A program made the translations under genes and the position numbers. Below are positions 1-34,131 of a stretch of 58,714 bases of DNA, piece after piece. Origin of the DNA: Rhodopila globiformis (lineage in GTDB: Bacteria > Pseudomonadota > Alphaproteobacteria > Acetobacterales > Acetobacteraceae); assembly GCF_002937115.1 (NCBI RefSeq), contig NZ_NHRY01000148.1:1-58714 (forward strand), read 5' to 3'. The notes beneath the pieces are model-generated. The model worked only from the letters and a program-made list of their open reading frames with translations, did no database searches and had not been told where the DNA came from. The stretch's first letter is position 1. Each line of letters begins with the position of its first letter.

Positions 1-1
1 G

Positions 2-1264: not shown

Positions 1265-2944
<1,680 letters not shown>

Positions 2945-2965
2945 GTCGTATGTCTCCCTGTCACA

Positions 2966-3190
2966 TCATCGGCACGACCCGAACAACTCATCGAAAAGAT
3001 CGCCGAACCACGCCTCCAACACGTCCACCTCGGCTTCCGTGACCGGGATATGCTCGGGCCAGTCGTCGGTGACGGTCCAGGTCGAAAGGTCATGCTTCGG
3101 CGGCCGGCCCGGAAACGGCCAGGGTTGACCGAGCAACGCTTCAAGTTGCTCCGATGCGGTTGGGGTGCATTCCTTGCGAAGTCTGGCCAT
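2966..3190 (-). CDS. Small hypothetical protein next to the recombinase
   Basis: This 74-aa acidic ORF (begins MARLRKECTP, ends LFDELFGSCR) lies between the recombinase and the GNAT toxin on the same strand. I do not recognise a named domain. Charged residues in the C-terminal half (VTEAEVDVLEAWFGDLFDEL) suggest an amphipathic helix. Its position 21 bp upstream of the recombinase start suggests co-transcription and perhaps a role as an accessory factor of the element, but that is inference. No strong ribosome-binding site precedes the ATG. Confidence 0.5.
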   Translation of the reverse strand: MARLRKECTPTASEQLEALLGQPWPFPGRPPKHDLSTWTVTDDWPEHIPVTEAEVDVLEAWFGDLFDELFGSCR

Positions 3191-3323
3191 TGCGCCAGAA
3201 TCGCCGAACCTGACACCTGAAAGAATAGCCTTTTCTTACGCTGGAAGCACCCGCGTACCTTGGCGCAAAAAGACTTGCGCGCGGCGGCGCGGGGCTGAAA
3301 CAGCGTAGGGGGAAAAGCGGTCG

Positions 3324-3830
3324 TCATAGCGATATCAGGTTCAGCGCCGTCGCCACCGGCAGATAGAGGGTGCGTGGCTGCCGCACCAAGGGCGCGAAGC
3401 CGAAGGCCAAATAGAAGGCCGCTGCTTGGTCGTCGATCGCGTCGGCAAAGATGGCGTGGGCGCCGATCGGAGCTGTGGCGACGGTCTTGATGGCGTCAAA
3501 CAGCAGGGCTTCGCCAAGCCCCTGTCCGGCAAAGTCGCTATGGCGGCCAAGCCAGCCGATCAGCACCGCCGGGACGGTCGGGTATCGCGGCAGTTTCTTC
3601 GCCAGTAGCTCAGGAACCTCGGTCAACGGTACGTTGCTGGATGAGAGCGTGTAGAAGCCCGCCACCCGGTCCGTCGCGATCTCCCTGGCAATGAAGCAGG
3701 TGGCGTATTTGCGCTTCACGTCCTGCGAGACGGTCTCACGGAAATAGATGTCGATCCGGTCGTTGCCGCAGGTAAAATCTGTCCGCTTGTGCGCCTTCGC
3801 CAGCGGTTCGATGGCGAAGCGGGCGCTCAC
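3324..3830 (-). CDS. GNAT-family acetyltransferase toxin (TacT/AtaT-like)
   Basis: This 168-aa protein has the GNAT fold signatures: the CGNDRIDIYFRE start typical of TacT-like toxins, the central FYTLSSSNVPL strand, the acetyl-CoA loop region GRHSDFAGQGLGEALLFDA (Q/RxxGxG/A type), and the C-terminal AAAFYLAFGFAPL. Family members acetylate the amino group of charged tRNAs and stop translation. The start overlaps the stop of the upstream DUF1778 antitoxin gene by 4 bp (ATGA), which couples their translation as in known TacA-TacT pairs. The length is normal. It most likely stabilises the island. Confidence 0.88.
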   Translation of the reverse strand: MSARFAIEPLAKAHKRTDFTCGNDRIDIYFRETVSQDVKRKYATCFIAREIATDRVAGFYTLSSSNVPLTEVPELLAKKLPRYPTVPAVLIGWLGRHSDFAGQGLGEALLFDAIKTVATAPIGAHAIFADAIDDQAAAFYLAFGFAPLVRQPRTLYLPVATALNLISL

Positions 3831-4117
3831 CGGCGCTCGATCAGCTCAGCATGGCGCTTCGCCGCGCGAGCCAGCCGCACGTTCGGCTGGGGCGGATTTA
3901 TCAGCGCTTCGGCGAAGCGGATTTGGTCCTCGCGCGCGAGGCGCATGATATCAGCGTCTTCGACGACGCGGCGCGCGTCCTCGCCGGCCGTGGAGATGAG
4001 ATAACCGGTCAGGGTCATGCCGCGCAGGCGAGCGGCGCGCTGCATCTGGTCGTAGACCTGAACTGGGACGCGCGCTTCCAATCGGGCGGTCTCGGCTTCG
4101 ATTTGGGGCTTGGGCAT
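3827..4117 (-). CDS. DUF1778 (TacA-like) ribbon-helix-helix antitoxin
   Basis: The 96-aa product begins MPKPQIEAETARLEARV. The start at 4117 is chosen because GGAAGGAGG precedes it at good spacing; an upstream in-frame start at 4216 would add 33 residues that do not look like the family. The N-terminal part fits the DNA-binding ribbon-helix-helix of DUF1778 antitoxins (RVPVQVYDQMQRAARLRGMT), and the C-terminal tail (DQIRFAEALINPPQPN) matches the toxin-wrapping segment of the family. It should neutralise the GNAT toxin and repress the operon through the palindrome just upstream. Confidence 0.88.
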   Translation of the reverse strand: MPKPQIEAETARLEARVPVQVYDQMQRAARLRGMTLTGYLISTAGEDARRVVEDADIMRLAREDQIRFAEALINPPQPNVRLARAAKRHAELIERR

Positions 4118-4141
4118 GGGGGCCTCCTTCCGCTCCATCAT

Positions 4142-4160
4142 ATACGGCATATTGCCGTAT
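4142..4160. promoter_or_regulatory. Palindromic operator of the TacAT-like operon
   Basis: A perfect 8-bp inverted repeat, ATACGGCA-tat-TGCCGTAT, lies 25 bp upstream of the antitoxin start. Position and symmetry fit the binding site of a dimeric ribbon-helix-helix antitoxin that represses its own promoter. Function is inferred from position. Confidence 0.65.
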
Positions 4161-4173
4161 TGATCAAGGCGCT

Positions 4174-6285
4174 TTACAGCCCGAGTCCGATCTGCCGCTT
4201 GCGGGTAAAGCTCCACTCGATCCCGCCGTCGTCGCGACGGAAGCCGCTGATGTGCTGGTCGAGACGCTTTTCCAGAACGGGCTGCCAGGGCACGAGCTGG
4301 AAGCCGAGTCCGTCCTCAAGCATGGCGAAGCGCCCGCTGGCGAGATTGGCGACGCCCGCCAGCCGGCCGGAGACATATTCGCCGGGCCCAGACGGGCTGT
4401 AGGTCAGTCCACGCTCGGCGGCCATCTCTTTGCCGACTCGGTCGATCTCCTGGCGCTCCAGCGCGGTGACCGTGCGCCGGGGGATGGAAATGACCCCGTC
4501 CTTCACGCTGGCATGGCCCATTTCGACGAGCCGCGCGGCGCGCCGGTCGAGCGCGGCGTTGACCTCCTGGCCAAACCCGGTTCCGGCAAGGGGCAGATGG
4601 TCTTTCGCAACAAGCTCCCTGTCGAGCCAGGTCGCGCCGTCGCTGCCAACCTGCCTGTCGAGGTCGAGCGTGGACAATGTGCGGATGCCAAAATCCTTGG
4701 GCCGGCCGGGGGCGTCATAGGCCAAGCCCCGCTCGGCGATGTCGCCGGGGATTTTCCAATGGTCGGCGTCGATGCGCTCGACATGCCCGGCGCGGCGCAA
4801 GGCTTCCAGCCTGCGCACATGGGAGCGAATGAAGGCGTCCGGGTCGCCGTGGCGCTGCTCGATGATGTCCCGCGTCGCTTCCAGATGCAGGCTCGGCTGG
4901 TAGATGCCGCCATTGGCCTCCGCCATGATCTGGATGTTGACATCCGCCGGCCGGGGATCGGCCTTGGTCGGCGCCGGATCGAGCGCGACGATGTGGCCGC
5001 GCCTGACCTCGTCCAGGCGGGCAGCGTCCGCCATCTCGACATAGTGGGTGCGTCCGTCCACGCCATCGATGACGAGGTGCAGCCGGTCGCCCATCTCGTC
5101 GCCGGCCAAGCCCTTGGCGAGCACGCGGCCCACGATCGGTTCGGTGATCTGCTTGCCGTGGGTGGCATACTGCCCCGGGGCGCGTTCGTCGGCGAGGCCG
5201 TGGTCGGCCAATGCTCGGTGCATGGTCTTGATGATGTCGCCGCGCTCGCCCAGTTCGCGCAAGGTCGGCTCGGCCTGTGCTGAGATGGACCAACGGCCAA
5301 CCTCCACCTCGGTCGCCAGCCCCATGCTCTCCAGCCTGCGGGCGCGGGCGATCAGCAGCGCCCGGTTCCGCCGCGCCGTCTCCAGCATGTCCTGGTCGGG
5401 GCGCAGATCGGCGAACGCGTGGCTCGCCTCCTGTTCGGCGATCAGTATGCGGTCCAGGCGGGTGAAGCGCTCGGCGTCCACCTCGCGCTCAAGCTGGCGG
5501 CTGACCTCCTGCTCGGTCTGCCGGCCCAGCTCCAGCGTGACGATCTCGCTCGCCCGTTCGCGGATGCCGTGGGCGATGTAGTCGCCGGCGATGTTGAGAA
5601 TCTTCCCGTCGTCGGTAACGCCGCGCAGCAGGATGTGGGTGTGCGGGTGACCGGTGTTGTGGTGATCGACCGCGATCCAGTCGAGCCTGGTTCCGAGATC
5701 GGCCTCCATCGTCTTCATCAGGTCGCGGGTGGTCTCCCGCAAGTCGGCCAGCTCCACGCCTTCCTCGGCGGAGACGATGAAGCGAAACTGGTGGCGGTCG
5801 TCTCGGCCCCGGTCGAGGAAGGTGCTGCCGTCCTCGACGTCGCGCTCGGCCGAATAGACCTGTCCCTTCTCGCCGTCGCGGTTGACGCCATCGCGCTCCA
5901 AGTAGCGCAGGTGGGCGTCCACCGCCTTTGCACTGACGAACGACCGTCCGCGCGCCGCGCCGCGCTGCGGGTTGAGCTTCACGATCCGCACTTTCACCGT
6001 CACGCGCCGTGCGCGGGTCCGCACGCCGCTGGCGTCCCGGCTCCAGGCGCTCCGGCCCTTCAGCCCGGCGGCGGCCGTAGCGCCCCGGCCTCGCGCATTG
6101 AACCGGCCGCTTCCCTTCCCGGCCGAGCTCAGCCGATTGGGGTCGCCGCCGGCGCGCCTGATGGCCTGATGCACCTCGGCCAGGAAGGTCTTCGGGCGCT
6201 GCCGGACGGCACGCGTGGTGCGTCCGTCAGCCCGGTCGCGGACCCGGCCGGGACGGACACGGAAATGCTCTTCGTCGTTCGCCAT
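4174..6285 (-). CDS. Relaxase (VirD2/TraI-like with DUF3363 domain)
   Basis: This 703-aa mobilisation nuclease should nick the element at its oriT and stay linked to the transferred strand. After a basic, low-complexity N-terminal region, the relaxase core shows the metal-binding histidine cluster DHHNTGHPHTHILLRG around residues 207-222 (HPHTH). The long C-terminal region matches the DUF3363 group of P-type relaxases (for example LDRQVGSDGATWLDREL and ASGRFAMLEDGLGFQLVPW). The length is typical. It ends just short of the antitoxin operator and is transcribed toward the recombinase. No coupling protein or mating-pair genes are found in the window, so the element probably depends on another conjugation system. 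Confidence 0.88.
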   Translation of the reverse strand: MANDEEHFRVRPGRVRDRADGRTTRAVRQRPKTFLAEVHQAIRRAGGDPNRLSSAGKGSGRFNARGRGATAAAGLKGRSAWSRDASGVRTRARRVTVKVRIVKLNPQRGAARGRSFVSAKAVDAHLRYLERDGVNRDGEKGQVYSAERDVEDGSTFLDRGRDDRHQFRFIVSAEEGVELADLRETTRDLMKTMEADLGTRLDWIAVDHHNTGHPHTHILLRGVTDDGKILNIAGDYIAHGIRERASEIVTLELGRQTEQEVSRQLEREVDAERFTRLDRILIAEQEASHAFADLRPDQDMLETARRNRALLIARARRLESMGLATEVEVGRWSISAQAEPTLRELGERGDIIKTMHRALADHGLADERAPGQYATHGKQITEPIVGRVLAKGLAGDEMGDRLHLVIDGVDGRTHYVEMADAARLDEVRRGHIVALDPAPTKADPRPADVNIQIMAEANGGIYQPSLHLEATRDIIEQRHGDPDAFIRSHVRRLEALRRAGHVERIDADHWKIPGDIAERGLAYDAPGRPKDFGIRTLSTLDLDRQVGSDGATWLDRELVAKDHLPLAGTGFGQEVNAALDRRAARLVEMGHASVKDGVISIPRRTVTALERQEIDRVGKEMAAERGLTYSPSGPGEYVSGRLAGVANLASGRFAMLEDGLGFQLVPWQPVLEKRLDQHISGFRRDDGGIEWSFTRKRQIGLGL

Positions 6286-6701
6286 GATGCGACGAGTGGA
6301 AGATCAAACGGCCGACACAAGGTCGAAAATGACGGCGTAGGGCTGTGGCGTAGAAATACTTGCTGTAGAGTAGACACGGCGGAACCGCGGACGCCGCACG
6401 TTGCGGGCGCCATCCAAAATGCCATTGAAAACGTTATGGAAATCGACTTCGCCGACGTCAGCGCACCTTGCGCCGTCTGCGGAAGGTCGCCAAAAAACAA
6501 TGTGCAGACAAACACTTAGGAACGAAGGTCCGATAGCGAGGAATCTCGCTTTATCTTGCCCTCCTAATTCGCCCTCTTCTTCGGGGCTCATATCAAACTC
6601 AAAATGCACCCACGCCCCCCGAATCAAAACCGCAAATGCGCCGTTGCCAAAAGGAGCTATTCTGCCCTAAATGGCTGCATGGATCGCCACAGGATTCGGC
6701 C
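6286..6701. other. Non-coding region upstream of the relaxase
   Basis: This gap separates the divergent relaxase and the Phd-like gene. It should contain both promoters and is the expected place for oriT. It holds the hairpin and TATCTTGCCC motif listed separately and one copy of a 15-nt sequence (6338-6352) that recurs with one mismatch after the defence operon. No gene is apparent. Confidence 0.5.
6535..6561 (+). other. Candidate oriT nick region
   Basis: A hairpin AGCGAG-gaat-CTCGCT (6535-6550) is followed directly by TATCTTGCCC (6552-6561). P-type origins such as that of RP4 have an inverted repeat upstream of a nic core close to YATCCTG/Y. Here one base differs in the core (TATCTTG). 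The location, 250 bp upstream of a P-type relaxase gene, supports the idea, but the stem is short and the call is tentative. Confidence 0.3.
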
Positions 6702-6908
6702 ATGAAAACCATGTCGGCGCGCGAGGCGAAGAACGCTTTCGGGCTGATGATCGACACCGCGCGTGCAGGCCCTGTGCTGATCGAAAAGCATGGGCGCGGC
6801 GTGGTGGTGGTGGTCGCAGTGGAAGAATATGAGCGACTTTCCGTGCAATCCGGACGCACGGAAAAGGGGGAAACGGGGACCACGCAGGCGTCGAAAAGCG
6901 GCCGATGA
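6702..6908 (+). CDS. Phd/YefM-family antitoxin-like protein without a toxin partner
   Basis: The 68-aa product begins MKTMSAREAKNAFG, the classic Phd N-terminus, and continues with the family strand pattern to VEEYERL; the tail after that is low in complexity. Phd proteins bind DNA through the N-terminal half and neutralise a toxin through the C-terminal tail. No Doc, YoeB or PIN-type toxin follows. The next gene is the defence helicase 75 bp downstream, so a role as regulator of that operon is possible. The start at 6702 is chosen for family fit over an upstream in-frame start at 6636. Confidence 0.75.
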   Translation: MKTMSAREAKNAFGLMIDTARAGPVLIEKHGRGVVVVVAVEEYERLSVQSGRTEKGETGTTQASKSGR

Positions 6909-6993
6909 AGCGATAACCCACGTCAAGATAGATTGGGTTCTGAACGGTCGTCGCCACTGGTATCAGGCGACATTGAATGAGGAGTGGGCGTGA
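6829..6993 (+). CDS. Possible small ORF coupled to the helicase gene
   Basis: A 54-codon frame starts MSDFPCNPDARKRG and ends WYQATLNEEWA. It overlaps the end of the Phd-like gene in another frame, and its stop overlaps the alternative helicase start GTG at 6990 (GTGA). The C-terminal half (HVKIDWVLNGRRHWYQATL) looks protein-like; the N-terminal half is Arg/Lys-rich and may be a frame shadow. I do not recognise it. Confidence 0.25.
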   Translation: MSDFPCNPDARKRGKRGPRRRRKAADEAITHVKIDWVLNGRRHWYQATLNEEWA

Positions 6994-9900
6994 GAACGGG
7001 ACGATCGGGCATCAAGGATAATCGTAGCAGGGGAGCGGTCCACGAGTTCATCACTGAGCGCGCGGTTCCCGACAGCCGGCTGTCCGTTGTCTCGGCCTAT
7101 TTCACGACCTTCGCTTACGATGGTCTCCGCAAGACATTGGACGGCGTCGCCCACATGCGCTTCCTCTTCGGCGAGCCGCGGTTCCTGAAGGATACGGACA
7201 ACGCTGGCCTCGTGCCGCCAGCCTTCTCGTTCGATGAGTCTGGACTGCGCCTCACCGAGCAAATACGGCAGCGCTCTGCCGCGTGGCGCTGCGCCCAATG
7301 GATCAAGGATCGCGTCGAAATACGGTCGGTCAAGCGCTCCGGCCTGTTGCACGGAAAGCTGATCCATATCGACGACGGACGCCGCCCACACGCCGTGCTC
7401 GGCAGTTCGAACTTCACGATCAACGGGCTCGGACTGGGTGATTCGCCGAACATCGAACTCAATCTGATTGTCGATAGTGATCGCGACCGGGAGGACCTTC
7501 TGGCCTGGTTCGACGAGCTATGGAGCGACACCAGCCTGACCGAAGACGTGCGCGACGAAGTGCTGCGCGCGCTCCAAGCTAGCTATGCCCACGCCGCTCC
7601 CGAGTTCGTCTATTTCAAGACGCTGCTTCACCTGTTCGGCGACTTCCTGACCGACCAGGCGGCGGAGGATGCGCTGATCCAACAGACCGCGTTCGAGCAG
7701 ACTGCGATCTGGCGCGCTTTGTTCGATTTCCAGCGTGACGGCCTCCGCGCTGTGCTTGGCAAGATCGGAAAACATGGCGGCTGCATCCTCGCTGACAGCG
7801 TCGGTTTGGGCAAAACCTTCACCGCTCTGGCGGTCATCAAGTGGTTCGAGAAGCGCAACAAGAACGTGCTCGTGCTGTGTCCAAAGAAGCTGCGCGAGAA
7901 CTGGACCGACTACCTCGCCACCAACAACAGCGAGATGAACCCGCTGCGCGAAGACAGGTTCGGCTATACCGTCCTGTCTCATACCGATCTTTCGCGTGAG
8001 AAGGGCAAGGTCGGCGACATTGACCTCGCGCGGATAGAATGGGGCAACTACGATCTCGTCGTTATCGACGAGTCCCATAATTTCCGAAGCGCATCGCGCA
8101 ACAAGACCGCTGGCGGGCGCCGCAGCCGCTACGAGCGGCTAATGGACGAGGTCATCAAGGCCGGCCTGCCGACCAAGGTTCTGCTGCTCTCGGCTACGCC
8201 GGTGAACAACGATCTAAGCGACCTCAAAGCGCAACTCGACCTGATTTCTGCCGACAGGGGAGATGGATTCATCGACCTGGGCGTGCCCAACCTGGGCACA
8301 CTGATCGGCGGGGCACGACGACGCTTTGCCGACTGGGCGAAAAGCGGCAGCCGTGATGCCGGCGAGCTGCTGAACAAGTTGCCGCCTGCGCTGTTCGGTC
8401 TGCTCGACGGCGTCACCATCGCGCGTTCGCGCAAACACGTCGAACGCCATTACGCCGCTTCGATGGAAAAGGTCGGCGGGTTTCCGAAACGGGCCGCACC
8501 CGAATCCATATTCGCCAACATCGACAGCCAGGGCGGCTTTCCGGCTTTCGAGGACGTAGATGCCGCAATCGGCAAGCTAGAGCTGGCACTCTACGGCCCG
8601 TTGACCTTCGTGCTTCCCGAGTATCGCGCCCACTATGATAAGGGTGGGAATTTCGACCAGGCCAATCGCGAAAAATACCTCATCGCGATGATGAAGATCG
8701 GCTTCCTCAAGCGCCTGGAAAGCTCGGTCAGCTCTTTCCGCCTGACGATGGATCGTATGATCGCTCGCATCGACCAGCGGCTTGGCGATCTTGACAGCTT
8801 CGACGCGACGGCGGCCATCGACACGCCGCCGCCAGATGAGATCGAGTTGGATGACGAATTGGAAGAAGCCTTCGAGGTCGGCGGCGCGCTGAAATATAAT
8901 CTCGCCCACATCGATCGGGCGGCGTGGAAGGCGGCGTTGACGCGCGATCGCGACCGGATCGCCGCGCTGGCCTCCGAAGCGCGCAATGTTACGCCCGATC
9001 GGGACGCCAAGCTGGCGCGGCTTAAGGAGATCATCCGCGCCAAGGCGGATAAGCCCACGACCAACCGAGATGGCGAGGCCAACCGCAAGATCATCCTGTT
9101 CACAGCCTTCACCGACACGGCCCGCTATCTCTACGAAGAGTTGCGTCCCCTTGCGCGCGAATGCGGGCTGCAAGCGGCACTGGTGACGGGCGACGGCTGC
9201 AAGGCGACTTTTGGCCCGGCGCGCTTTCAGGACGTGCTGGTCAATTTCGCGCCGCGCGCCAAACGCCGTGCCTTGATGCGCGGTGCCGAGACCGGCGGCG
9301 AAATCGACCTGCTGATCGCCACCGACTGCATCTCGGAAGGCCAGAATCTCCAGGACGCCGACTTGTTAGTGAATGTCGACATTCACTGGAACCCCGTGCG
9401 CCTTATCCAGCGCTTCGGGCGGATCGACCGGATCGGCAGCCGCAACGCCACAATCCGTATGGTCAATTTCTGGCCGACCGAAGACCTGAATAGATATTTG
9501 CGCCTCAAGGATCGAGTGGAGGCCCGCATGGCGCTGGTCGATCTCTCGGCCACGGGCGACGACGATCTACTCAATGCGCGGGCCGAGGCCGATGGTGACG
9601 CGCGCTGGCGCGACGAGCAACTGCTCCGTCTGAAGGACGAACTGTTCGACCTAGAAGATGCGGGGGGAGGTGTGACGCTCGCCGATTTCGCGCTCGACGA
9701 TTTCCGAGCGGACCTGCTCGGCTTTGCGCGCACGAACGAGCAGGCGTTGCGCGACGCGCCGCTGGGGCTGCACGCGATTGTCCCAAATGATGTCGACGGC
9801 GCCCTCCTCGATCCCGGCGTGATTTTCTGTCTGAGGCGCCGCCCGCCCGAGCCGAGCACGGAGCAGGCAAAGATCAACCCGCTAGACCCCCACTATCTCG

Positions 9901-10241
9901 TCTATGTGAAGGATGACGGCCCGGTGCGCCTCGGCTTCGGTCAACCCAAGCCGATCCTGGACGCCTATCGCGCGCTTTGCCTGGGGCATGATGAGCCCTT
10001 CGAGGTGCTCTGCAATGCATTTGACGACGAGACGGACCACGGCGAGAAGATGGAGCGGTATGACGGGCTGATCCGCGCCGCAGTGGCCTCCATCGGCGAA
10101 ACCTCCGCGACTCGGACATTGGCGGCGCTCACCAGCTCGCGCGGCGCACGGGTGCCCGACGGGAAAGCACAGGCGCGCGCCAGCCTGGACTATGACCTCA
10201 TTACCTGGCTCATCGTTCGGCCGACTGCGGGGGCGGCATGA
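6984..10241 (+). CDS. Defence helicase: PLD nuclease-like domain fused to an SNF2 helicase (Hma-type)
   Basis: This protein of about 1,085 aa opens the defence operon. The N-terminal phospholipase-D-like domain shows an HKD-type motif, HGKLIHIDDG ... GSSN, around residues 123-144. The SF2/SNF2 motor follows: Walker A DSVGLGKTF near 270, Walker B VVIDESHN near 360, motif III LLLSATPVNND, and the C-terminal lobe with LIATDCISEGQNLQ and QRFGRIDRIGS near 808-818. It should translocate on or remodel phage DNA, with the PLD domain as a possible nuclease. The start is GTG at 6984 or GTG at 6990; GAGGAG lies just upstream. Its stop overlaps the methylase start by 4 bp. Confidence 0.88.
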   Translation: MGVRTGRSGIKDNRSRGAVHEFITERAVPDSRLSVVSAYFTTFAYDGLRKTLDGVAHMRFLFGEPRFLKDTDNAGLVPPAFSFDESGLRLTEQIRQRSAAWRCAQWIKDRVEIRSVKRSGLLHGKLIHIDDGRRPHAVLGSSNFTINGLGLGDSPNIELNLIVDSDRDREDLLAWFDELWSDTSLTEDVRDEVLRALQASYAHAAPEFVYFKTLLHLFGDFLTDQAAEDALIQQTAFEQTAIWRALFDFQRDGLRAVLGKIGKHGGCILADSVGLGKTFTALAVIKWFEKRNKNVLVLCPKKLRENWTDYLATNNSEMNPLREDRFGYTVLSHTDLSREKGKVGDIDLARIEWGNYDLVVIDESHNFRSASRNKTAGGRRSRYERLMDEVIKAGLPTKVLLLSATPVNNDLSDLKAQLDLISADRGDGFIDLGVPNLGTLIGGARRRFADWAKSGSRDAGELLNKLPPALFGLLDGVTIARSRKHVERHYAASMEKVGGFPKRAAPESIFANIDSQGGFPAFEDVDAAIGKLELALYGPLTFVLPEYRAHYDKGGNFDQANREKYLIAMMKIGFLKRLESSVSSFRLTMDRMIARIDQRLGDLDSFDATAAIDTPPPDEIELDDELEEAFEVGGALKYNLAHIDRAAWKAALTRDRDRIAALASEARNVTPDRDAKLARLKEIIRAKADKPTTNRDGEANRKIILFTAFTDTARYLYEELRPLARECGLQAALVTGDGCKATFGPARFQDVLVNFAPRAKRRALMRGAETGGEIDLLIATDCISEGQNLQDADLLVNVDIHWNPVRLIQRFGRIDRIGSRNATIRMVNFWPTEDLNRYLRLKDRVEARMALVDLSATGDDDLLNARAEADGDARWRDEQLLRLKDELFDLEDAGGGVTLADFALDDFRADLLGFARTNEQALRDAPLGLHAIVPNDVDGALLDPGVIFCLRRRPPEPSTEQAKINPLDPHYLVYVKDDGPVRLGFGQPKPILDAYRALCLGHDEPFEVLCNAFDDETDHGEKMERYDGLIRAAVASIGETSATRTLAALTSSRGARVPDGKAQARASLDYDLITWLIVRPTAGAA

Positions 10242-13200
10242 GCCACGCCACAGAACGTCTCGCTGCGATCCGCGACGCGGTTTCGGGGCTTGCCGGCGCG
10301 GACCTCGCGGGCGCGGGTCGGAGGCTGCTCGATGTCATGGGCTATCGTAGCCCGAAGACACTGGACACTCCCGCTGCGCCCGCCCAGTTTCTTGCTGCAC
10401 TGGGCATGGATGCGGCGCGTTTCGAGACGAGCCGCTGGCGCGCGGTACATTTCCTTTTCCAGCTCACCGGCGACGAACTGCCCGCCCTGTCGCGCGGCGG
10501 CGATCCGGCGACCGGCGAGGCTTTTCAGCGGGGCGCGATCGATTCCTTCGTCTTCCTCGCCATCGACCTAGACGACGGCGGTTGGTCGCGCCGCCAGCTC
10601 GTGGCGATCGTGCGCGCCCTCAATCGCGGGTTCGCCATGCCCGTGATCGTATTGTTCCGCCATGGCGGACAAGCGACGCTGACAGTGATCGACCGCCGCG
10701 CCAACCGGCGCGACGCCGCGCGCGACGTGGTCGGCGGGCGGATCAGCCTGATCAAGGACATCAACCTTGCCAGGCCCCACCGCGCCCATGTGGAAATCCT
10801 GGCAGACCTGTCTCTCGCCGCACTCGCCGGGCGCAAGGCTCCATCGGATTTCCGCGCGCTCTATGATCTTTGGCTGGAGACGCTGTCGGCTGCCGAACTC
10901 AACAAGCGCTTCTATGAGGAACTGGCCGACTGGTTCGCCTGGGCCAGCACCAGCGCGCCGCTCGCCTTCTCCAAGGGGCAAGGCAATGGCGCGGGCGCGA
11001 AGGAAATCGCACTGATCCGCCTGCTCACTCGGCTGATGTTCGTCTGGTTCATCAAGGAAAAGGGACTCGTCCCTGAGGCGCTGTTTGATGGACCCTCGCT
11101 GGCGAAGCTGCTGAAGGAGCCGCCCGCAGCGACGCCCAGCGGTCACGGCTATTATCTTTCCATTCTACAGAACCTGTTCTTTGCCACCCTCAACACCGAA
11201 ATGCCCGAACGGCGCTGGCGGCAGGACGATGCTGGACAATCAAGGGATTACCTCGGCCACCACGTCTATCGCCATGCCACCTTGTTCGCAGAGCCGGAGA
11301 AGGCGTTGGAAGCCTTTGCCAGCGTGCCATTTCTCAACGGTGGCCTGTTCGAATGCCTGGATACCGAGGTCGCCAGCGACGATCCGCGCGCGGGCGATGC
11401 CGAGCGGGAGCGCCAGCGGCTGATCCTGCGCATCGACGGCTTTTCCGATCAGCCGGACAAGCAGCCGCGTTTGCCCAACGCCTTATTTTTCGGCGGTGCG
11501 AAGGGCGTCGATCTGTCCGGCTGGTTCGAAAAGGCCAAAGCGCCGCGCGACGTGCCCGGCCTGATCGACCTGTTCGAACGCTACAAATTCACCGTCGAGG
11601 AAAACACGCCTCTCGAAGAAGAGGCCGCGCTCGATCCCGAACTGCTGGGCAAAGTGTTCGAGAACCTGCTCGCCTCCTACAACGAGGACACCAAAACCAC
11701 CGCCCGCAACAAGTCAGGCAGCTTTTACACGCCGCGCGAGGTGGTCGATTTCATGGTCGATGAGGCGCTGGTCGCCTGGCTGCTGCCGAAACTGCCGAGC
11801 GAATTGGGATTGGAGTCCGATGGCGGAGACGAAACCCGCCTCCGTGCCCTGCTCAGCTTCGCCAGCCGTTCGCACGATTTCAGCCCTGCCCAGGTGGATG
11901 CGCTGATCGCCGCCATCGAGAGCTGCAAAGCGATTGACCCCGCCGTAGGGTCAGGCGCCTTCCCGCTCGGCCTGTTGCAGAAACTGGTTCACATGCTCGA
12001 CGTGCTGGATCCCGGCGGGGAAAAGTGGAAGGCGCGCAACCGCCTCTATTACGAACGCCGGCTCGCTGAGGCCGAGGCCATTCCGGCCGCCAGTGAGCGC
12101 GCCGCTGAGATCGAGAAGGCCCAGGAAGCGCTCGGTGAATTCGACGCCAAGTTCGAAAGCGGCCACTATCCCGACTATACCCGTAAGCTGTTCCTGATCG
12201 ACCGTTGCCTGCACGGCGTGGATATTCAACCGATCGCTGTACAAATCGCCAAGCTACGCTGCTTCATCAGCCTGGCGGTCGAGCAGAAGGAAAATCCGGG
12301 CCGTCCCAATCGCGGAATCACACCATTGCCGAACCTCGAAGCAAAATTTGTCGCCGCCAATACGCTGACGCCGCTGCACCGTCGTGGCCAGGCGGGGCTG
12401 GTCAGCCAGGACTTGCTCAGGAAGCAGCGGGCGCTGCGCGAAGCAAATCGCGCCTTCTTTGCCGCCGCGAATAGCGCCGCAAAACGGCGGGAGCAGCGCA
12501 GGATCAAGCTGCTGCGCGCGGAAATCGCCGACGAGGTTATGCGCGACCACGCCTTCGCCGGCGACGACGCCAGGAAGCTCGCAGCCTGGGGCCCGTTCGA
12601 TCCCAATGCGTTCGCACCTTTCTTCGATGCGGAATGGATGTTCGGCTTTGATCCCTCCGCTACCAGCGGTTGGTTTGACATCGCGCTGGCGAACCCGCCT
12701 TACATACGTTCTGGCAAGATCGATCCCGTCTTCAAGGTCGCGCTCAAGCGCGACTATCCGGGATTCTTCGCTGGCTCTTCGGACATCCTGACCTATTTCT
12801 TCAAGATCACCGAGAGCCTGCTCGTCAAAGGCGGCGTTCTCTCCTTTATAACCTCGAACAACTATATGCGCGCGGGCTATGGTGCGGCCACGCGGGAGTT
12901 GCTGAGTAAGCAATTCCAGCCGCTAGTGATCGTCGATTTCGGCGAACTGCCCGTCTTCAAAGCCGCCGTGGACAGCACGGTCTATATTGGTATCGACGGT
13001 GCGGGCGCCGACAAGCCCTTTCGTGCGCTCACGATCAAGACTATCGATGATATTTCCCGGCTGGGCGAAATCGTTCGCGAGAGCCCGCCTTCGATCAGGC
13101 CGAGCGAACTCGACCCTTCGGGCTGGAGCTTCGCTCCGCCGGAACTTCGAGCGCTTGCGGATCGCATGGACCGCGTTCCGACCAAGGTCAGCAATATCGT

Positions 13201-14164
13201 CGCCGACCGATTCTACTACGGCATCAAAACGGGCTTTAACGCCGCGTTCCTTATCGATGATGCGTTCCGGCAAAGGCTGCGGGCGGATGGCGCCGACCAA
13301 GCGCTCATCCGCCCGTGGATAGACGGTGGCGAGATCGGCCGCTGGGAACACGGCTATTCGGACCAATATCTTATTGCCATAGCGTCGGGCTCCAACATTA
13401 AAGGTGGCTGGCCGTGGTCGCGGCGCGGGGAATCGGACGCCGAACGCGTCTTTGCGCGCGAGCACCCAGCATTGTTCCGGCATCTTTCCCAGTGGCGCAC
13501 GGAGCTAAAGAAGCGTTCCGATAAGGGAGAGTATTGGTGGGAGCTTCGTGCCTGTGCCTATTGGGACGCATTCAAGCAGACCAAGATCGCCTACAATGAA
13601 ACCTCGGCAGAGTTGCACGCCTTCGTCGATGAAGATGGCTTCTGCTTCAACAAGACCGCCTTCATTCTCCTGCCGGAAGACCCGTGGTCGCTGCTCGCGA
13701 TTCTGCTCTCCAAGCCGCTCGACTTTTACTACCGGATGCGCTTCCCCAGCCACGGTGATCCATTCAACGGCGGGCGCCCGCAATTCCGTAAAGACCGGAT
13801 GTTGACTGTGCCAGTGCCAGTGACGACGGCTCAGCAGAGGTCCGGGCTGGCGCTACTGGCGCAGGCGGTAACACGTTGCCACGAGGCGGAGCTTCTCGCA
13901 GTTGCGGCGCGGCTTGAAGCCCTGATCAACGCCCTCGTCTACGAGTTGTTTTTCGCCGACGAGTTGCACGCGCGCAATCTGCTCCCCTTCGTCGCCGCGC
14001 GCGATGCGGGGCTGATGAACCTCGTGGCCCTTGAAGGCCCTGCGCTCGCCCGCGCCGCCGAAGACTGGTCCCGCTGCCTCGCCGACCCCGCCCACCCCCT
14101 CTACGCCACCCTCTTCGACCTGCAATCCATCGACGCGGTCAGGATTATCGAGGGGCGGGCGTGA
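10238..14164 (+). CDS. Eco57I-type adenine-specific DNA methyltransferase of the defence operon
   Basis: This 1,308-aa class I methyltransferase shows SAM-binding motif I IDPAVGSGAFPLGLL near residue 566 and the catalytic NPPY motif (ANPPYIRSGK) near residue 818, as in gamma-class N6-adenine methylases of the Eco57I and BREX PglX type. The N-terminal 450 residues precede the helical SAM-domain lead-in (LLGKVFENLLASYNE ... SGSFYTPREVV); the C-terminal part, from about residue 960, is likely target recognition. Enzymes of this size can be bifunctional type IIG nucleases, but I see no clear nuclease motif in it. The ATG overlaps the helicase stop, and its own stop overlaps the next gene's GTG, so the operon is translationally coupled. 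Confidence 0.88.
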   Translation: MSHATERLAAIRDAVSGLAGADLAGAGRRLLDVMGYRSPKTLDTPAAPAQFLAALGMDAARFETSRWRAVHFLFQLTGDELPALSRGGDPATGEAFQRGAIDSFVFLAIDLDDGGWSRRQLVAIVRALNRGFAMPVIVLFRHGGQATLTVIDRRANRRDAARDVVGGRISLIKDINLARPHRAHVEILADLSLAALAGRKAPSDFRALYDLWLETLSAAELNKRFYEELADWFAWASTSAPLAFSKGQGNGAGAKEIALIRLLTRLMFVWFIKEKGLVPEALFDGPSLAKLLKEPPAATPSGHGYYLSILQNLFFATLNTEMPERRWRQDDAGQSRDYLGHHVYRHATLFAEPEKALEAFASVPFLNGGLFECLDTEVASDDPRAGDAERERQRLILRIDGFSDQPDKQPRLPNALFFGGAKGVDLSGWFEKAKAPRDVPGLIDLFERYKFTVEENTPLEEEAALDPELLGKVFENLLASYNEDTKTTARNKSGSFYTPREVVDFMVDEALVAWLLPKLPSELGLESDGGDETRLRALLSFASRSHDFSPAQVDALIAAIESCKAIDPAVGSGAFPLGLLQKLVHMLDVLDPGGEKWKARNRLYYERRLAEAEAIPAASERAAEIEKAQEALGEFDAKFESGHYPDYTRKLFLIDRCLHGVDIQPIAVQIAKLRCFISLAVEQKENPGRPNRGITPLPNLEAKFVAANTLTPLHRRGQAGLVSQDLLRKQRALREANRAFFAAANSAAKRREQRRIKLLRAEIADEVMRDHAFAGDDARKLAAWGPFDPNAFAPFFDAEWMFGFDPSATSGWFDIALANPPYIRSGKIDPVFKVALKRDYPGFFAGSSDILTYFFKITESLLVKGGVLSFITSNNYMRAGYGAATRELLSKQFQPLVIVDFGELPVFKAAVDSTVYIGIDGAGADKPFRALTIKTIDDISRLGEIVRESPPSIRPSELDPSGWSFAPPELRALADRMDRVPTKVSNIVADRFYYGIKTGFNAAFLIDDAFRQRLRADGADQALIRPWIDGGEIGRWEHGYSDQYLIAIASGSNIKGGWPWSRRGESDAERVFAREHPALFRHLSQWRTELKKRSDKGEYWWELRACAYWDAFKQTKIAYNETSAELHAFVDEDGFCFNKTAFILLPEDPWSLLAILLSKPLDFYYRMRFPSHGDPFNGGRPQFRKDRMLTVPVPVTTAQQRSGLALLAQAVTRCHEAELLAVAARLEALINALVYELFFADELHARNLLPFVAARDAGLMNLVALEGPALARAAEDWSRCLADPAHPLYATLFDLQSIDAVRIIEGRA

Positions 14165-15066
14165 CCGATCCGCTCTGTCAGTTTTCTCGTAGCTTCCCCG
14201 ATCTGGCCGCGAGCATTCTTCACCGCGACCGCCACAAGCGCCGCAACTTCCGCGAGGAGACGATCACAGACATTTTGATCGCGGGTCTGACGGCGTTCGA
14301 GCCCTTCGGCGTGCGGGTCGATTTCCCGGCGGATGAATCGAAGACCGGCGACGACATGGACTGGGAGTTCGTCGCTCCCCGCGCCACTAATGGCCGACGC
14401 TATCTTCGCCTACACATCCAGGCCAAACGCGCCATCTTCAAACAACGGACGAGAAAACCATCCTATTGGCTCTATGAACAACTCGATCATGAAGCGCAGC
14501 TGCACGCGGGGTACGGTAGCCAGGCGGAGCGGCTGATCAACAGCGCGAGGGCGCAGCCCTGCTGCGTGCCGCTTTACATGTTTTATCATACGCTGGGCGG
14601 GCTTCAGCCTTCGGGCAGCGGGCTGCCGGCGATCGAGGGAGTGAACGCGATCTTTGCGGATTTGCTCCGACCGTTGCTTACCGCCAATCCGCCTGCCAGA
14701 GGCAACAGTGGCTGGTCAGTAGACGACAAAAAGGTCGAGAAATGGCGCCCCCATTTCATGCCGCTGTCAGATTTGCTCTGTTTTGGCGGCATTGCCGCCC
14801 TTCCAGTCTCTTCCAATGACGGGCGTGTGGCCTTTCTCGTGCGATGGATGAATGGGCTCATCTCGCCCGGCATGTTAGCGGACCGGCTGAATGCCCGTAA
14901 GCGACGTAGTATTGCTGAAACTGAGCTGGTTGACACCGCCTCCATAGAGGCAGTCGAACAGATTCCACAAGCCACGCTGCGCGCCATCGAAACGCCCGGC
15001 GCCGGCCGTGGAGGGGCGGAGATTGAGCGCCCGCGAGCGATCTTCCTTAGCGGCGATGGTGGCTGA
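14161..15066 (+). CDS. DUF6615-type protein with PD-(D/E)XK-like nuclease motifs, embedded in the defence operon
   Basis: This is a 301-aa protein. Residues 31-89 show an order typical of PD-(D/E)XK restriction-type nucleases: an acidic helix (REETITDIL, E32/E33), then TGDDMDWEF (D64, D65, D67), then a strand LHIQAKR with Q87-A-K89 as the QxK active-site half. I associate the arrangement with DUF6615, recalled rather than searched. The rest (YWLYEQLDHEAQL, LYMFYH) is unfamiliar. It starts with GTG inside the methylase stop (GTGA) and ends 2 bp before the ATPase start, so it is a coupled member of the operon. It may be the effector nuclease or an inserted accessory defence gene. Confidence 0.65.
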   Translation: MTDPLCQFSRSFPDLAASILHRDRHKRRNFREETITDILIAGLTAFEPFGVRVDFPADESKTGDDMDWEFVAPRATNGRRYLRLHIQAKRAIFKQRTRKPSYWLYEQLDHEAQLHAGYGSQAERLINSARAQPCCVPLYMFYHTLGGLQPSGSGLPAIEGVNAIFADLLRPLLTANPPARGNSGWSVDDKKVEKWRPHFMPLSDLLCFGGIAALPVSSNDGRVAFLVRWMNGLISPGMLADRLNARKRRSIAETELVDTASIEAVEQIPQATLRAIETPGAGRGGAEIERPRAIFLSGDGG

Positions 15067-15068
15067 TC

Positions 15069-16562
15069 GTGGAGGACGGCGGGAAGTCCGCATCGCAGCC
15101 ACTCAGGATCGAAAGTCTGTCGCTTCGCGCCTATCGGGCGTTCAGCGCCGAGTTGGAAATCCCGGTGCATGGCCGCAACCTGATCGTCTATGGCGAGAAC
15201 GGCGCGGGCAAGTCATCGATATACAAAGCGCTTCGCGACCTGTTTGCCCGGCGTCCGCGTCGGGACGCTTTGAAGAGCAATGCCCATGTCCACGCGCTCG
15301 ACCCGCTCTTGACCCCGCGCGTTAACGTCACCTTCAATGATGGCAGGCCGTCGCTCGAATGGACGGAGACGCGGCATCCCGGCCTGCCGACAGCGGACCC
15401 GCGCGTCGCGCTGGCGGCGTTGCGCAGTTCCTTCCTCGACTATCACGCGCTCCTGGAAACCAACGCCTTCCATGGTCAGCACCGTCCGAACCTGTTCGAC
15501 CTCGCCATCGAAACCCTGCTCGCCGATTTCGCCGACGCTACATCCGGCAAGACCCTCGCCGAACGCTGGACGGAGACCGAACGCGCCAGGCCGCACGTCC
15601 ATCGCTCGAATACCAATTATCTGACCCACGTCGAGGCGGCCTGCGCGGCCTTCAACGCCGGCCTAGAAGAAGCGCTCGACGCCATGCTGCCGATCATCAA
15701 CACCCTACTTGCCGATCTCGGCCGTCACGAAATGAGGATCGAGGCCTTCGAGCGCGGAACCGTACGCTACAATAATTCGCGGCTGAAAAAGGATCGCGGT
15801 TTCGCGGCGAAGGAACTCTACGCAAAGCTGGAGTTTCGAGGATATTACCCGCAACAGCCGCAGCATTTCCTGAACGAAGCCCGGCTTTCAGCCTTGGCGC
15901 TGGCCTTCTATCTCGCCGGCCGTCTTGCCTGCGTTCCCTCGGCGCCCTCGCAGGCGCTCAAGCTGTTGGTGCTGGACGATGTGCTGGTTGGCCTCGACTA
16001 CGCGAATCGCCGGCCGCTCCTGGCCGTATTGGATAAGCATTTCGCCGATTGGCAGATCGTGTTGCTCACCCACGACCGCCATTGGTTCGAAGTGATCCGA
16101 GCCGCCATCCCAACCGATCGCTGGACCTGCCATGAGATGTACGAGATGGTCGCGGTGACGGGCGAGGCCACGCCCTATCTGCGTCCCGTTCCGTCTGACA
16201 TCGTTAAAGCCACGCTCAAGCAGGCCCGCGATTTCATCGCTCAGAAGCATCTGCCCGCCGCCGCCAATTACGCGCGCTCCGCCTGCGAGTTGTTGCTCCG
16301 CAAGCAGTGCGAGGACAAGAAGGTTGCGTTTCCTTACAAGCCTGATCCGAAGAAAATCACGTTCGAACAACTCAAGACCGGCCTTGAGAATAAGTTCGCC
16401 GGAGATCAACCGAAACTCGACGCTCTGGCGGCGATCACCCCGCACCAGGCCCGCATACTCAACCCGCTGTCGCACGACCCCACGACCTCGCTCAATGAGG
16501 CCGAGGTAGTTGCGGCCATAGACGCGGTCGAAACCCTCACGACGGCGCTGCGAACCCCGTGA
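15069..16562 (+). CDS. RecF/SMC-like ABC ATPase of the defence operon
   Basis: This 497-aa P-loop protein begins with the DNA-repair-type ATPase start (LRAYRAFSAELEI), then Walker A GENGAGKSS at residues 42-50. An internal helical region leads to a signature-like RLSALALAFYLA and Walker B LLVLDDVLVGLD near 300, followed by the switch histidine LLTHDRHW. A separate C-terminal region (AANYARSACELLLRKQ) looks like a HEPN-type helical bundle, but I cannot confirm it. It is short for an SMC protein and lacks a long coiled coil. As the last gene of the operon it would be the ATPase partner of the helicase and methylase. Confidence 0.82.
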   Translation: MEDGGKSASQPLRIESLSLRAYRAFSAELEIPVHGRNLIVYGENGAGKSSIYKALRDLFARRPRRDALKSNAHVHALDPLLTPRVNVTFNDGRPSLEWTETRHPGLPTADPRVALAALRSSFLDYHALLETNAFHGQHRPNLFDLAIETLLADFADATSGKTLAERWTETERARPHVHRSNTNYLTHVEAACAAFNAGLEEALDAMLPIINTLLADLGRHEMRIEAFERGTVRYNNSRLKKDRGFAAKELYAKLEFRGYYPQQPQHFLNEARLSALALAFYLAGRLACVPSAPSQALKLLVLDDVLVGLDYANRRPLLAVLDKHFADWQIVLLTHDRHWFEVIRAAIPTDRWTCHEMYEMVAVTGEATPYLRPVPSDIVKATLKQARDFIAQKHLPAAANYARSACELLLRKQCEDKKVAFPYKPDPKKITFEQLKTGLENKFAGDQPKLDALAAITPHQARILNPLSHDPTTSLNEAEVVAAIDAVETLTTALRTP

Positions 16563-16835
16563 TCGACTTGGCGCGGAGCGTCATAGGGCTATGGCGTAAA
16601 CGTAGTGATCATCGCTATCGCTCGCGGCCCGCCAGCGCATTGACCATCATCCCAAACGTCCCACAAGGATAAACCGGTCAAGTCGGCTCAGGCTCTGAGT
16701 GGTTGCCGCCCGCGATCGGATCGTCGCAAACCACCCTACCCCGATCTTCAAACCGGCCCGCCGCCAAACCGACGTCCTCCTTGCGCCGCACGAAAAACCG
16801 GCGCAAAGAGATTCCCGTTTCGGGGACTGAACACG
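16563..16835. other. Junction between the island and the oxidoreductase genes
   Basis: This is the stretch where the right end of the island should lie. No copy of the tRNA-Ser 3' end is seen. Bases 16584-16598 (TAGGGCTATGGCGTA) repeat 6338-6352 in the same orientation with one mismatch. A weak purine-rich stretch precedes iorA. No gene is visible. Confidence 0.45.
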
Positions 16836-18635
16836 ATGAACGTACAGGCCAGGCCGAAGGCGGCCGATGACCTCCTTCCGCTGATGGGCAACGAGGCCAT
16901 CGCGCGCGGCGCGTGGGAAGCGGGCGTCAAGGTCGCCGCCGCCTATCCCGGTACCCCCTCGACCGAGATCCTCGAATCCCTCGCCCAGTACCCGGCCTCC
17001 GACCTCTACGCCGAATGGTCCACCAACGAAAAGGTCGCGCTCGACGTCGCCATCGGTGCCGCGCTGTCCGGCGTGCGGGCGATCTGCTGCATGAAACATG
17101 TCGGACTCAACGTCGCGGCTGACTCCCTGATGTCGCAGTCCTACATCGGCGCGCACGCCGGCCTCGTGCTGGTCGTCTGCGACGATCCCGGCATCCATTC
17201 CTCGCAGAACGAGCAGGACACCCGCCTGTTCGCGCGCTTCGCCGGCGTGCCGGTGCTGGAGCCGTCCGACGCGCAGGAAGCCTACGACTTCACGTTCCTC
17301 GCCTTCGATCTGTCGGAGCAGTTTGACACGCCGGTGATCGTGCGCTCGACCACCCGCCTGTCGCACACCCGCTCGGTCGTGCGCGTCGGCAACCGGGCCG
17401 CGCCGCCGGCCAAAGGCTTCGTCGACGCGCCGGGCAAGACCGTCACCATTCCCGCCAACGCGCGCCGGCTGCACCCGAAAGTCATCGAGCGTGAGGCGAA
17501 GCTCGCCGCCTGGCTCGAAACCGCGCCGCTCACCCGTTGGGAAAAGGGCGACACGACCTTCGCCATCGTCACCGGCTCGACGTCGTATCTGTATGTGAAA
17601 GAGGTCGCGCCGCGCGCCTCGATCCTGAAGCTCGGCGCGGCCTACCCCCTGCCTGAGGCGACGCTGCGCGCCTTCGCCGCCTCAGCCGATCGGCTGCTCG
17701 TCGTCGAGGAGCTTGAACCGGCGCTGGAAACGCAGATCCGCGCGCTCGGCCTGCCCGCCGAGGGCAAAGCGTTCTTCCCGCGCTCCGGCGAACTGTCGCC
17801 GGAACTGGTGCGCGCGGGCCTCGCCGCCGCGGGCCTGGCCGAGGCGCCGCCCGAACCCGTCCCGCTCGACATCCAGCCGATGGCGCGCCCGCCGGTGCTG
17901 TGCGCCGGCTGCCCGCACACCGGCGCCTTCTTTGCGCTGCGCGGGATCGACGCGCGGGTCGCCGGCGACATCGGCTGCTACACGCTGGCCGCGGTCGAGC
18001 CGCTGCGCTCGATCGATACCACCATCTGCATGGGCGCGAGCATCGGCAACGCCGTCGGCATGGCGGCGGCCGGGGAGAAAAAGCCGATCGTCGCCACCAT
18101 AGGCGATTCGACATTCCTGCACTCCGGCATCCCACCGCTGATCGACGCGGTCTACAACAAGGCGAACATCACCGTCGTCATCCTCGACAACGCCATCACC
18201 GCGATGACCGGCGGGCAGGACCATCCGGGCACCGGGCAAAGCCTGCGCGGCGAGCCCGCGCCAAAGGCCGACTACGAGGCGATCTGCCGCGCCGTCGGGG
18301 TAACCTGGATCCGCCGCGTCGATCCGTACGACGTCGGCCACATGTACCAGACCCTGCGCGAGGCGATCGTCCACAAGGGCGTCTCGGTCGTCATTTCCGA
18401 GCGTCCGTGCGTGCTCGATCCGGTCCGGATCAAGGGCACGCCGCTCGCGGTGAGGCAGGACGGCTGCGTCGCCTGCCAGTCGTGCATGAACCTCGGCTGC
18501 CCGGCGCTGCTCTGGTCGGACGAACTCTATGAGGGCCGGCACAAGGTGCGGATCGACGCCGCCGCCTGCATCGGCTGCACGCTGTGCGCCCAGGTCTGCA
18601 CGTCCGACTGCATCCAGCCGGTGGCCGCCGCATGA
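16836..18635 (+). CDS. iorA: Indolepyruvate ferredoxin oxidoreductase, alpha subunit
   Basis: This 599-aa subunit is the TPP-containing catalytic chain that decarboxylates aryl-pyruvates and passes electrons to iron-sulfur clusters, forming the aryl-acetyl-CoA with IorB. The N-terminal pyrimidine-binding domain includes AAAYPGTPSTEILE, and the TPP diphosphate site is GDSTFLHSGIPPLIDA near residue 425. The C-terminal ferredoxin domain carries CVACQSCMNLGC and CIGCTLCAQVC, two [4Fe-4S] clusters. The length is normal for the family. Its stop overlaps the iorB start by 4 bp. Confidence 0.93.
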   Translation: MNVQARPKAADDLLPLMGNEAIARGAWEAGVKVAAAYPGTPSTEILESLAQYPASDLYAEWSTNEKVALDVAIGAALSGVRAICCMKHVGLNVAADSLMSQSYIGAHAGLVLVVCDDPGIHSSQNEQDTRLFARFAGVPVLEPSDAQEAYDFTFLAFDLSEQFDTPVIVRSTTRLSHTRSVVRVGNRAAPPAKGFVDAPGKTVTIPANARRLHPKVIEREAKLAAWLETAPLTRWEKGDTTFAIVTGSTSYLYVKEVAPRASILKLGAAYPLPEATLRAFAASADRLLVVEELEPALETQIRALGLPAEGKAFFPRSGELSPELVRAGLAAAGLAEAPPEPVPLDIQPMARPPVLCAGCPHTGAFFALRGIDARVAGDIGCYTLAAVEPLRSIDTTICMGASIGNAVGMAAAGEKKPIVATIGDSTFLHSGIPPLIDAVYNKANITVVILDNAITAMTGGQDHPGTGQSLRGEPAPKADYEAICRAVGVTWIRRVDPYDVGHMYQTLREAIVHKGVSVVISERPCVLDPVRIKGTPLAVRQDGCVACQSCMNLGCPALLWSDELYEGRHKVRIDAAACIGCTLCAQVCTSDCIQPVAAA

Positions 18636-19549: not shown

Positions 19550-19610
19550 TGCAGAATAGTCGTTCCAATTGCCGCCCGGACGTTTCAACCGTCACGGCGG
19601 CCGTTCTCTC

Positions 19611-19692
19611 ATCGTCATGGCCGGGCGTGTCCCGGCCATCCACCCCCTTCCGTCGAAGCGCGGATGGCCGGGACACGCCCGGCCATGACGAT
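19611..19692. repeat. Perfect 31-bp inverted repeat (palindromic repeat family)
   Basis: Bases 19611-19641 and 19662-19692 are exact reverse complements around a 20-nt loop. Each arm is itself palindromic (GGCCGGG-n5-CCCGGCC), so RNA or single strands can form a cruciform or a double hairpin. The arms resemble palindromes at 31.17, 47.40, 51.88 and 53.54 kb, which makes this one copy of a dispersed repeat. It could also terminate iorAB transcription ahead of korA, though no U-tract follows. Confidence 0.85.
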
Positions 19693-28486: not shown

Positions 28487-28487
28487 C

Positions 28488-34129: not shown

Positions 34130-34131
34130 CC

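Follow-up and report, generated by a model that had tools for sequence, protein, structure and literature searches.

The window analyzed here is the whole 58,714-nucleotide (nt) stretch of Rhodopila globiformis DNA (contig NZ_NHRY01000148.1, positions 1 to 58,714). It carries a four-gene operon as cargo of a mobile element, and we refer to the genes as A, B, C, and D in 5′ to 3′ order. A sequence-only reading had described them as a helicase, a methylase, a DUF6615-type protein, and an ATPase that together form an Hma-type defense operon, with the DUF6615-type protein as either the effector nuclease or embedded cargo. The genes and their relevant parts are:

6984..10241, plus strand: gene A, 1085 amino acids (aa); N-terminal PLD/HKD nuclease domain and SNF2 helicase (Pfam PLDc_2, SNF2-rel_dom, Helicase_C)
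7350..7373, plus strand: HKD motif of A, HGKLIHID, residues 123-130
10238..14164, plus strand: gene B, 1308 aa; Eco57I-type methylase with a TaqI_C specificity region (Pfam Eco57I 90.6 bits, TaqI_C 27.6 bits)
10538..10909, plus strand: N-terminal part of B (residues 101-224), segment resembling DUF4391; profile match 35.8 bits
12708..13910, plus strand: target-recognition region of B (about residues 824-1224), exchanged relative to the related genome G497, with which DNA homology is interrupted here
14161..15066, plus strand: gene C, 301 aa; DUF6615 (PF20320) with a PD-(D/E)XK-type site, E-D-QxK (E32/E33, D65, Q87, K89)
14158..15092, plus strand: embedded segment with C; G497 has 65 base pairs (bp) in its place
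15069..16562, plus strand: gene D, 497 aa; ABC ATPase resembling Rad50/SMC heads; contains a short coiled coil and, C-terminally, a helical region bearing NPxSH (Pfam SMC_N)

Coordinates and junction sequences agree with the earlier description of four same-strand genes. A and B overlap by ATGA at 10238-10241, B and C overlap by GTGA at 14161-14164, and 2 bp separate C from D (between 15066 and 15069). The motifs quoted for the PLD/SNF2 protein, the methylase, and the ATPase were all located in the translations: HGKLIHID and the SNF2 motifs in A, DPAVGSGAF and NPPY in B, and GENGAGKSS and LVLDDVLVGLD in D, which matches SMC_N/AAA_21 in Pfam. The DUF6615 assignment of the third gene also stood, as C matches PF20320 at 190.1 bits, compared to a curated cut-off of 23.8. 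Third-position GC is 0.69 in C versus 0.76-0.77 in A, B, and D, which would weakly fit a separate origin of C.

We searched for A in 385 genomes of the class, where 14 had a match at E ≤ 1e-20, and in 395 genomes of the order, where 15 had a match at E ≤ 1e-100 (own genome included in both counts). Neighborhoods were read at 25 A matches, with four weaker class rows (G210, G120 twice, G131) left out. Three of these 25 stretches contain A, B, and D together and no C. The first, in G497 (L062), a genome of another genus in the same family, encodes proteins 99% (A), 75% (B), and 97% (D) identical to those of the window; the corresponding values are 96%, 96%, and 38% in G018 (L063), which belongs to the same genus as the window, and 84%, 64%, and 40% in G470 (L064). 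A fourth locus with A, B, and D but no C was found on an IMG/VR contig (L116; A 52%, B 45%, D 41%). In G780 (L051), A (54%) lies at a contig end, with B and D out of view. A search with PF20320 found nothing in five genomes (G018, G497, G470, G780, and G243); the controls were also silent there, yet the same search detects the C of the window. At E ≤ 1e-40, searches with D matched 2 genomes among 398 of the phylum, with a match in G851, and 3 among 397 of the family, its own genome again included.

As a proxy for co-occurrence, we paired protein clusters whose longest contigs have identical sizes and compared the counts with chance expectation. Among the best 120 A clusters (of 7997 proteins) and the best 120 D clusters (of 1388 proteins), nine A/D cluster pairs had equal longest contigs, compared to 0.40 expected. 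The single C-D pair (4187 bp), with 0.51 expected, was dismissed. The four additional loci and the nine cluster pairs indicate that A-B-D is more than a chance grouping, and the association of helicase, methylase, and ATPase proposed from the sequence was thus upheld. A, B, and D form the core, and C is a separate gene, present or absent, between B and D.

The comparison between the window and G497 localizes this difference. The element that carries the operon is:

1322..16634, no strand assigned: mobile element that begins in the 3′ part of tRNA-Ser(CGA) and ends just past D, with collinear DNA in G497

Starting inside tRNA-Ser, positions 1322-12708 are collinear with G497 at 94.8% identity over 11,387 bp, followed by 13910-14157 at 92.3% and 15093-16634 at 96.5% DNA identity. 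The two elements differ in two blocks, 12708-13910, which is the target-recognition region, and 14158-15092, which contains C. Across the first block the B proteins diverge, from 88-100% identity over residues 1-800 to 26-38% over residues 851-1150. In G497, an in-frame stop follows residue 1163 of B, so this copy may be inactive. In G018, B is full length and its target-recognition region is the same as that of the window (88-100%). We also observed one remnant, L084, which seems to have lost the central part of the operon: an N-terminal piece of A (84%) directly adjoins a piece from the C-terminus of D (48%).

What C encodes was examined by alignment, structure prediction, and database searches. 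Residues E32, E33, D65, Q87, and K89 are present in all 36 aligned rows, and the AlphaFold2 (AF2) model (pLDDT 86.9) gave moderate structural matches to Hjc, RecU, SwaI, PvuII, and EcoRV; C has the E-D-(D/E/Q)xK site of the PD-(D/E)XK superfamily on the corresponding fold. A PDB sequence search with a DUF6615 profile returned two weak matches, neither a nuclease, and PADLOC gave no match for C at E ≤ 0.01. Members of the DUF6615 branch to which C belongs are 53-93% identical.

A pattern-based scan of 84,980 species genomes identified 29 DUF6615 loci. In all 29, 12 of which are shortened by contig ends, neither B nor D adjoins the gene, and A is absent except for a 59-bit helicase match in L030. 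Together with two viral contigs, 28 of 31 loci contain an intact DUF6615 ORF (open reading frame) by a simple gene caller. Among the 103 nearest genes of at least 150 aa at 27 loci, we found no constant neighbor; no Pfam family occurred in more than three of them (best 25 of 84 families). PADLOC matches at E ≤ 1e-20 in these neighbors included Gabija, AbiE, PifA, SspF, Avs3a, HerA, Dsr1, PD-Lambda-4, MzaB, and CBASS E1-E2/JAB (best 25 of 88 families), nearly all in one gene each, a list that stands without a background control. A plasmid search with C gave matches in 10 of 72,556 records; of the four that we opened, Shedu lies nearby in one and an AAA ATPase adjoins a helicase in two. Two loci have distinctive arrangements: in L091, the DUF6615 gene overlaps a gene for a patatin-like phospholipase, and in L003, a CBASS-type E2/ThiF/JAB protein is encoded upstream. 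Within the part of the open literature that was searched, which does not cover most subscription journals, neither DUF6615 nor DUF4391 is described as a defense component.

Since A-B-D occurs without C at four loci, and C occurs elsewhere without a constant partner and often amid defense genes, C is probably an embedded extra nuclease. Thus, of the two roles initially offered for the DUF6615-type protein, cargo gained support and effector nuclease is disfavored, because four core loci lack C, including G018 with full-length genes (A and B both 96%), and because the HKD site of A is intact.

This site distinguishes A from its DUF4391-linked relatives. In an alignment of the window's A with listed close homologues of more than 1000 aa (6 of 121, being shorter, were left out), H123 and K125 are present in 115 of 115 rows and D130 in 98 of 115, among the matches listed. 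Relatives that are about 37-44% identical lie mostly in an operon of A, DUF4391, and type III Mod and Res genes. We compiled 28 loci, including three close relatives (L071-L073) and three chosen by hand from plasmid matches (L086-L088). Four are A-B-D loci; in 18, A is followed by a DUF4391 gene, and Mod is visible in 17 of these; five contain A alone, and one lacks A; L076 was counted as A alone, yet a DUF4391-like frame runs off its contig. None of the 18 DUF4391-linked helicases has HKD at the aligned place, although HxK is displaced by a few residues in L077 and L078 and occurs elsewhere in some others. A 28% relative found as A alone (L083) keeps HxK. Pfam PLDc_2 was undetected in the three DUF4391-linked helicases tested and detected in L116. 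As the nuclease site is alive, in this locus set, where there is no Res subunit, A is probably the cutter in the window operon.

Embedded genes, mostly of defense families, were also found inside six of the 18 DUF4391 operons. These are GmrSD-type genes in L065 and L067; AbiJ-like and PDC-M59A genes in L077; a Schlafen AlbA_2 protein with weak PADLOC matches in L080; an OLD-TOPRIM protein and a DUF2130 protein in L088; and, in L066, a protein of 192 aa with a match to DarG. As DarG usually acts as an antitoxin, not every embedded guest is a nuclease. Judged from these gene orders, hosting embedded genes is a habit of the helicase family of A. Another embedded pair may exist on a Parabacteroides plasmid (L125), where an SNF2 protein and an Eco57I-type methylase are followed by a 304-aa protein without a Pfam or PADLOC match and by a TIR protein.

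The DUF4391 gene of the type III-linked operons has a counterpart within B. We built a profile from 15 A-linked DUF4391 proteins and searched the 4082 ORFs of the study loci at E ≤ 0.01. The matches consisted of DUF4391 genes and A-B-D methylases only (32-37 bits; residues 101-224 in the B of the window). With hhalign, this segment scored a probability of 93.7-96.1% in five of five A-B-D methylases, compared to at most 1.4% in five other Eco57I-type methylases and 0.1% in a Parabacteroides relative. Since A is followed by a stand-alone DUF4391 gene in its type III-linked relatives, the segment in B is probably a shared docking segment for A. B resembles Type IIG restriction-methylases (PADLOC REase_MTase_IIG, 278.5 bits) in its methylase core and TaqI_C specificity region; it differs in that no N-terminal nuclease was recognized, with the DUF4391-like segment present instead, and in its helicase and ATPase partners.

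The AF2 model of D (pLDDT 87.6) resembles Rad50/SMC heads, with Rad50 the best Foldseek match (E 8.8e-12). Its best PADLOC match is mad3, at 48.7 bits. In the C-terminal helical region, P466 and H469 of the NPxSH motif are present in 40 of 40 rows. The arginine preceding this motif is not conserved, and we do not claim an active HEPN RNase at this end of D.

We consider it likely that A, B, and D constitute a restriction-modification-like defense system on a mobilizable element, with C an additional nuclease gene embedded in it. The sequence-only reading was right in seeing a defense operon, here one of restriction-like character. B would mark self DNA by methylation, with the sites determined by its exchangeable target-recognition region, a role suggested by its domains and the exchange of that region. 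A would be the restriction enzyme, with its SNF2 motor moving on unmarked DNA and its HKD domain cutting, as suggested by the intact HKD site and by the loss of HKD in relatives with a type III Res subunit. In B, the DUF4391-like segment would probably dock A, and D, the Rad50/SMC-like ATPase, might gate or sense, which is a guess. C would be a self-sufficient PD-(D/E)XK DNase that gives the operon another, independent way to cut, of use when a phage blocks or evades A-B-D.

If so, an HKD-SNF2 helicase, an Eco57I methylase with a DUF4391-like segment, and a Rad50-like ATPase make up a distinct restriction-like system, the loss of HKD where a Res subunit is present is a natural experiment on switching of the cutting domain, and DUF6615 joins the probable anti-phage nucleases missed by the PADLOC library searched. 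With near-identical elements that carry or lack C and have different target-recognition regions, both the part played by the extra nuclease and the specificity of methylation can be tested directly. A broader proposal, which we hold tentatively and rate at a little under even, is that the SNF2/PLD helicase and its DUF4391 partner are one modular restriction chassis with two builds, both of which dock embedded defense genes, DUF6615 among them. One build would be the type III Mod-Res pair with a dead helicase nuclease site and a free DUF4391; the other would be the Eco57I methylase and Rad50-like ATPase with a live nuclease site and the DUF4391-like segment fused to the methylase.

Several observations weigh against a core of A-B-D with C as a guest. 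The closest comparison lacking C, G497, is the copy that may be inactive, and in G018, where the genes are full length, D is only 38% identical. A related Planktothrix methylase (45% identical) reached only 10.7% by hhalign, Pfam's own DUF4391 model matches B at E 0.022, which is not significant, and the role of D is a guess. At 9 of the 28 loci, a same-strand ORF, mostly a different one each time, lies within 60 bp of the DUF6615 gene, which therefore does not always stand alone. Finally, two DUF6615/A cluster pairs have equal longest contigs (40887 and 27925 bp), compared to 0.21 expected and 0.025 above 10 kb; the DUF6615 members are 59% and 39% identical to C and the A members 79% and 78% identical to A. 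C may therefore be a recurring partner. These two possible contig pairs, the tight coupling of C to its neighbors (the overlap with B and the 2 bp to D), and the fact that the contigs of its own DUF6615 branch are out of view would fit an alternative in which one branch of the system uses C as a functional fourth subunit, with D licensing or activating the DUF6615 nuclease by analogy with ABC ATPases that have partner nucleases elsewhere. We regard this as unlikely: the D of G497 is 97% identical, yet C is missing there; the genome loci have C homologues without A, B, or D beside them, within the limits of contig ends and the one helicase match; and among possible A-C pairs, that of the window is the sole verified one.

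The adjacency of methylase and PD-(D/E)XK genes could also mark B and C as a classical type II pair, a methylase with its cognate endonuclease, with A and D unrelated. However, B accompanies A and D at four loci that lack C, no B homologue lies beside C in any of the 29 genome loci, and no Pfam family in the neighbor scan recurred in more than 3 of the 103 genes (best 25 of 84 families), although single other methylases are possible in it. As each gene occurs without the other, this pairing is disfavored, and we consider it very improbable. We give equally little credence to the operon being a decaying remnant on an old element. Such a remnant exists in L084, and the B of G497 has a stop, but all four ORFs of the window are full length with every motif present, and about 95% DNA identity has been kept between genera.

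Least probable of all is the label originally given to the operon, an Hma system, here one centered on DUF499 and related to BREX but with a divergent ATPase. In PMC12839542, Hma and other BREX-related (BR) systems are defined by a DUF499 ATPase, and Hma consists of a helicase, a methylase, and that ATPase; PMC8565338 terms HmaB an m5C methylase. The window operon bears the same three labels, A is a SWI2/SNF2 helicase (SNF2-rel_dom, Helicase_C) with an HmaA match, only 98.7 bits, and, in PMC12839542, Type-2 BR (Hma-like) systems likewise combine an HKD-SNF2 helicase as restriction effector with a methylase and an ATPase. The differences are that D is a Rad50/SMC-head ABC protein rather than a DUF499 AAA+ ATPase, with DUF499 unmatched in Pfam at E ≤ 0.1, that no DUF3780 was matched by Pfam in nine scanned genes (the operon's four and five from the left flank), and that B is Eco57I/type IIG-like. 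HmaB and HmaC are not among the best 25 of 47 PADLOC families for B or D, and A fits the C3a139 "HKD+Snf2" model (345.6 bits) better than HmaA. Membership in Hma was rejected on the ATPase family. The PADLOC check proposed with that label thus sustained the helicase (C3a139) and the methylase (type IIG), gave, among the families listed, no support for Hma beyond the HmaA match, and was silent on C.

Other known systems share parts of this composition. The nearest, as described in PMC10853773, is CxC ABC-ATPase/PbeABCD, with an HKD nuclease-SF2 helicase fusion, an ABC ATPase, DndE, and, in some cases, a DNA methylase. Here, by comparison, there is no CxC Zn-hook (C-x1-2-C occurs in 1 of 40 D rows and not in the D of the window), PbeA and PbeC match at only 41.8 and 18.2 bits, and DndE had no match among the genes scanned with Pfam; the spacing from A to D leaves no space for another gene. 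The SNF2-DUF4391-Mod-Res operons share a homologous A, DUF4391 (a similar segment being fused to B here), and embedded genes, but differ in that their helicase has lost HKD, their DUF4391 is separate, and Mod and Res take the place of B and D. In the window operon, B is Eco57I-type, and no Res gene was found within it. For MORC-linked operons, a 2008 paper (PMC2292703) had pointed out type III-like helicases in which an HKD domain replaces the REase. As to C, auxiliary genes embedded in BREX and BR loci are most often PD-(D/E)XK nucleases, according to PMC12839542. C resembles these as a nuclease gene inside a core operon; it differs in having no PADLOC model match and, within the literature searched, no mention of DUF6615.

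Likeness to DISARM was limited. A matches DrmD at 119 bits (NCBIfam 143.5, cut-off 610), the helicase part of A matches DrmA at 62.8 bits, and B matches DrmMI weakly, at 47.2 bits; among nine genes scanned with Pfam, we found no separate DrmA or DUF1998/DrmB gene. The MAD1-MAD8 set of MADS is absent from this four-gene operon, where D has its best PADLOC match in mad3 and B matches mad2 weakly (29.9 bits). Overall, the window operon is probably a restriction-like system of recognizable logic combined with a probable defense nuclease family that lacks a PADLOC model.

The operon is the cargo of an element that also contains, to its left, a serine recombinase, a GNAT/TacA-type pair, an RlxS-type relaxase, and a Phd-type ORF. 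The element adjoins tRNA-Ser(CGA) in the window (1265-1354) and tRNA-Ser(GGA) in the other genus (G497, L094), and its serine recombinase ORF extends into the tRNA gene. A GNAT acetyltransferase adjoins a TacA1-type antitoxin at 3324-4216, a probable toxin-antitoxin pair of the element. The small Phd/YefM-type antitoxin ORF (6702-6908, Pfam 46.6 bits) lies directly upstream of A, with no toxin gene recognized beside it, and might regulate the operon. A scan for sigma-70 promoters found none, with 2.1 expected by chance.

On the right, homology between the window and G497 stops 72 bp past D, and homology to genomes of the same genus starts again at 16705. No direct repeat of at least 14 bases that could mark a right-hand att site was found between 1-7000 and 16400-20000; in G006 and G008, the tRNA and the right flank are on separate contigs. 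Farther right is a block of type VI secretion genes (26546-43572), including a VgrG-like hub (26546-28486), IcmF (34132-37653), a ClpB/ClpV-type ATPase (39539-42178, minus strand), and ImpA (42373-43572). To the left of tRNA-Ser, two ORFs at 38-918 encode an IS1595/ISXO2-type transposase, and parts of this region were found again on other contigs of the same genome.

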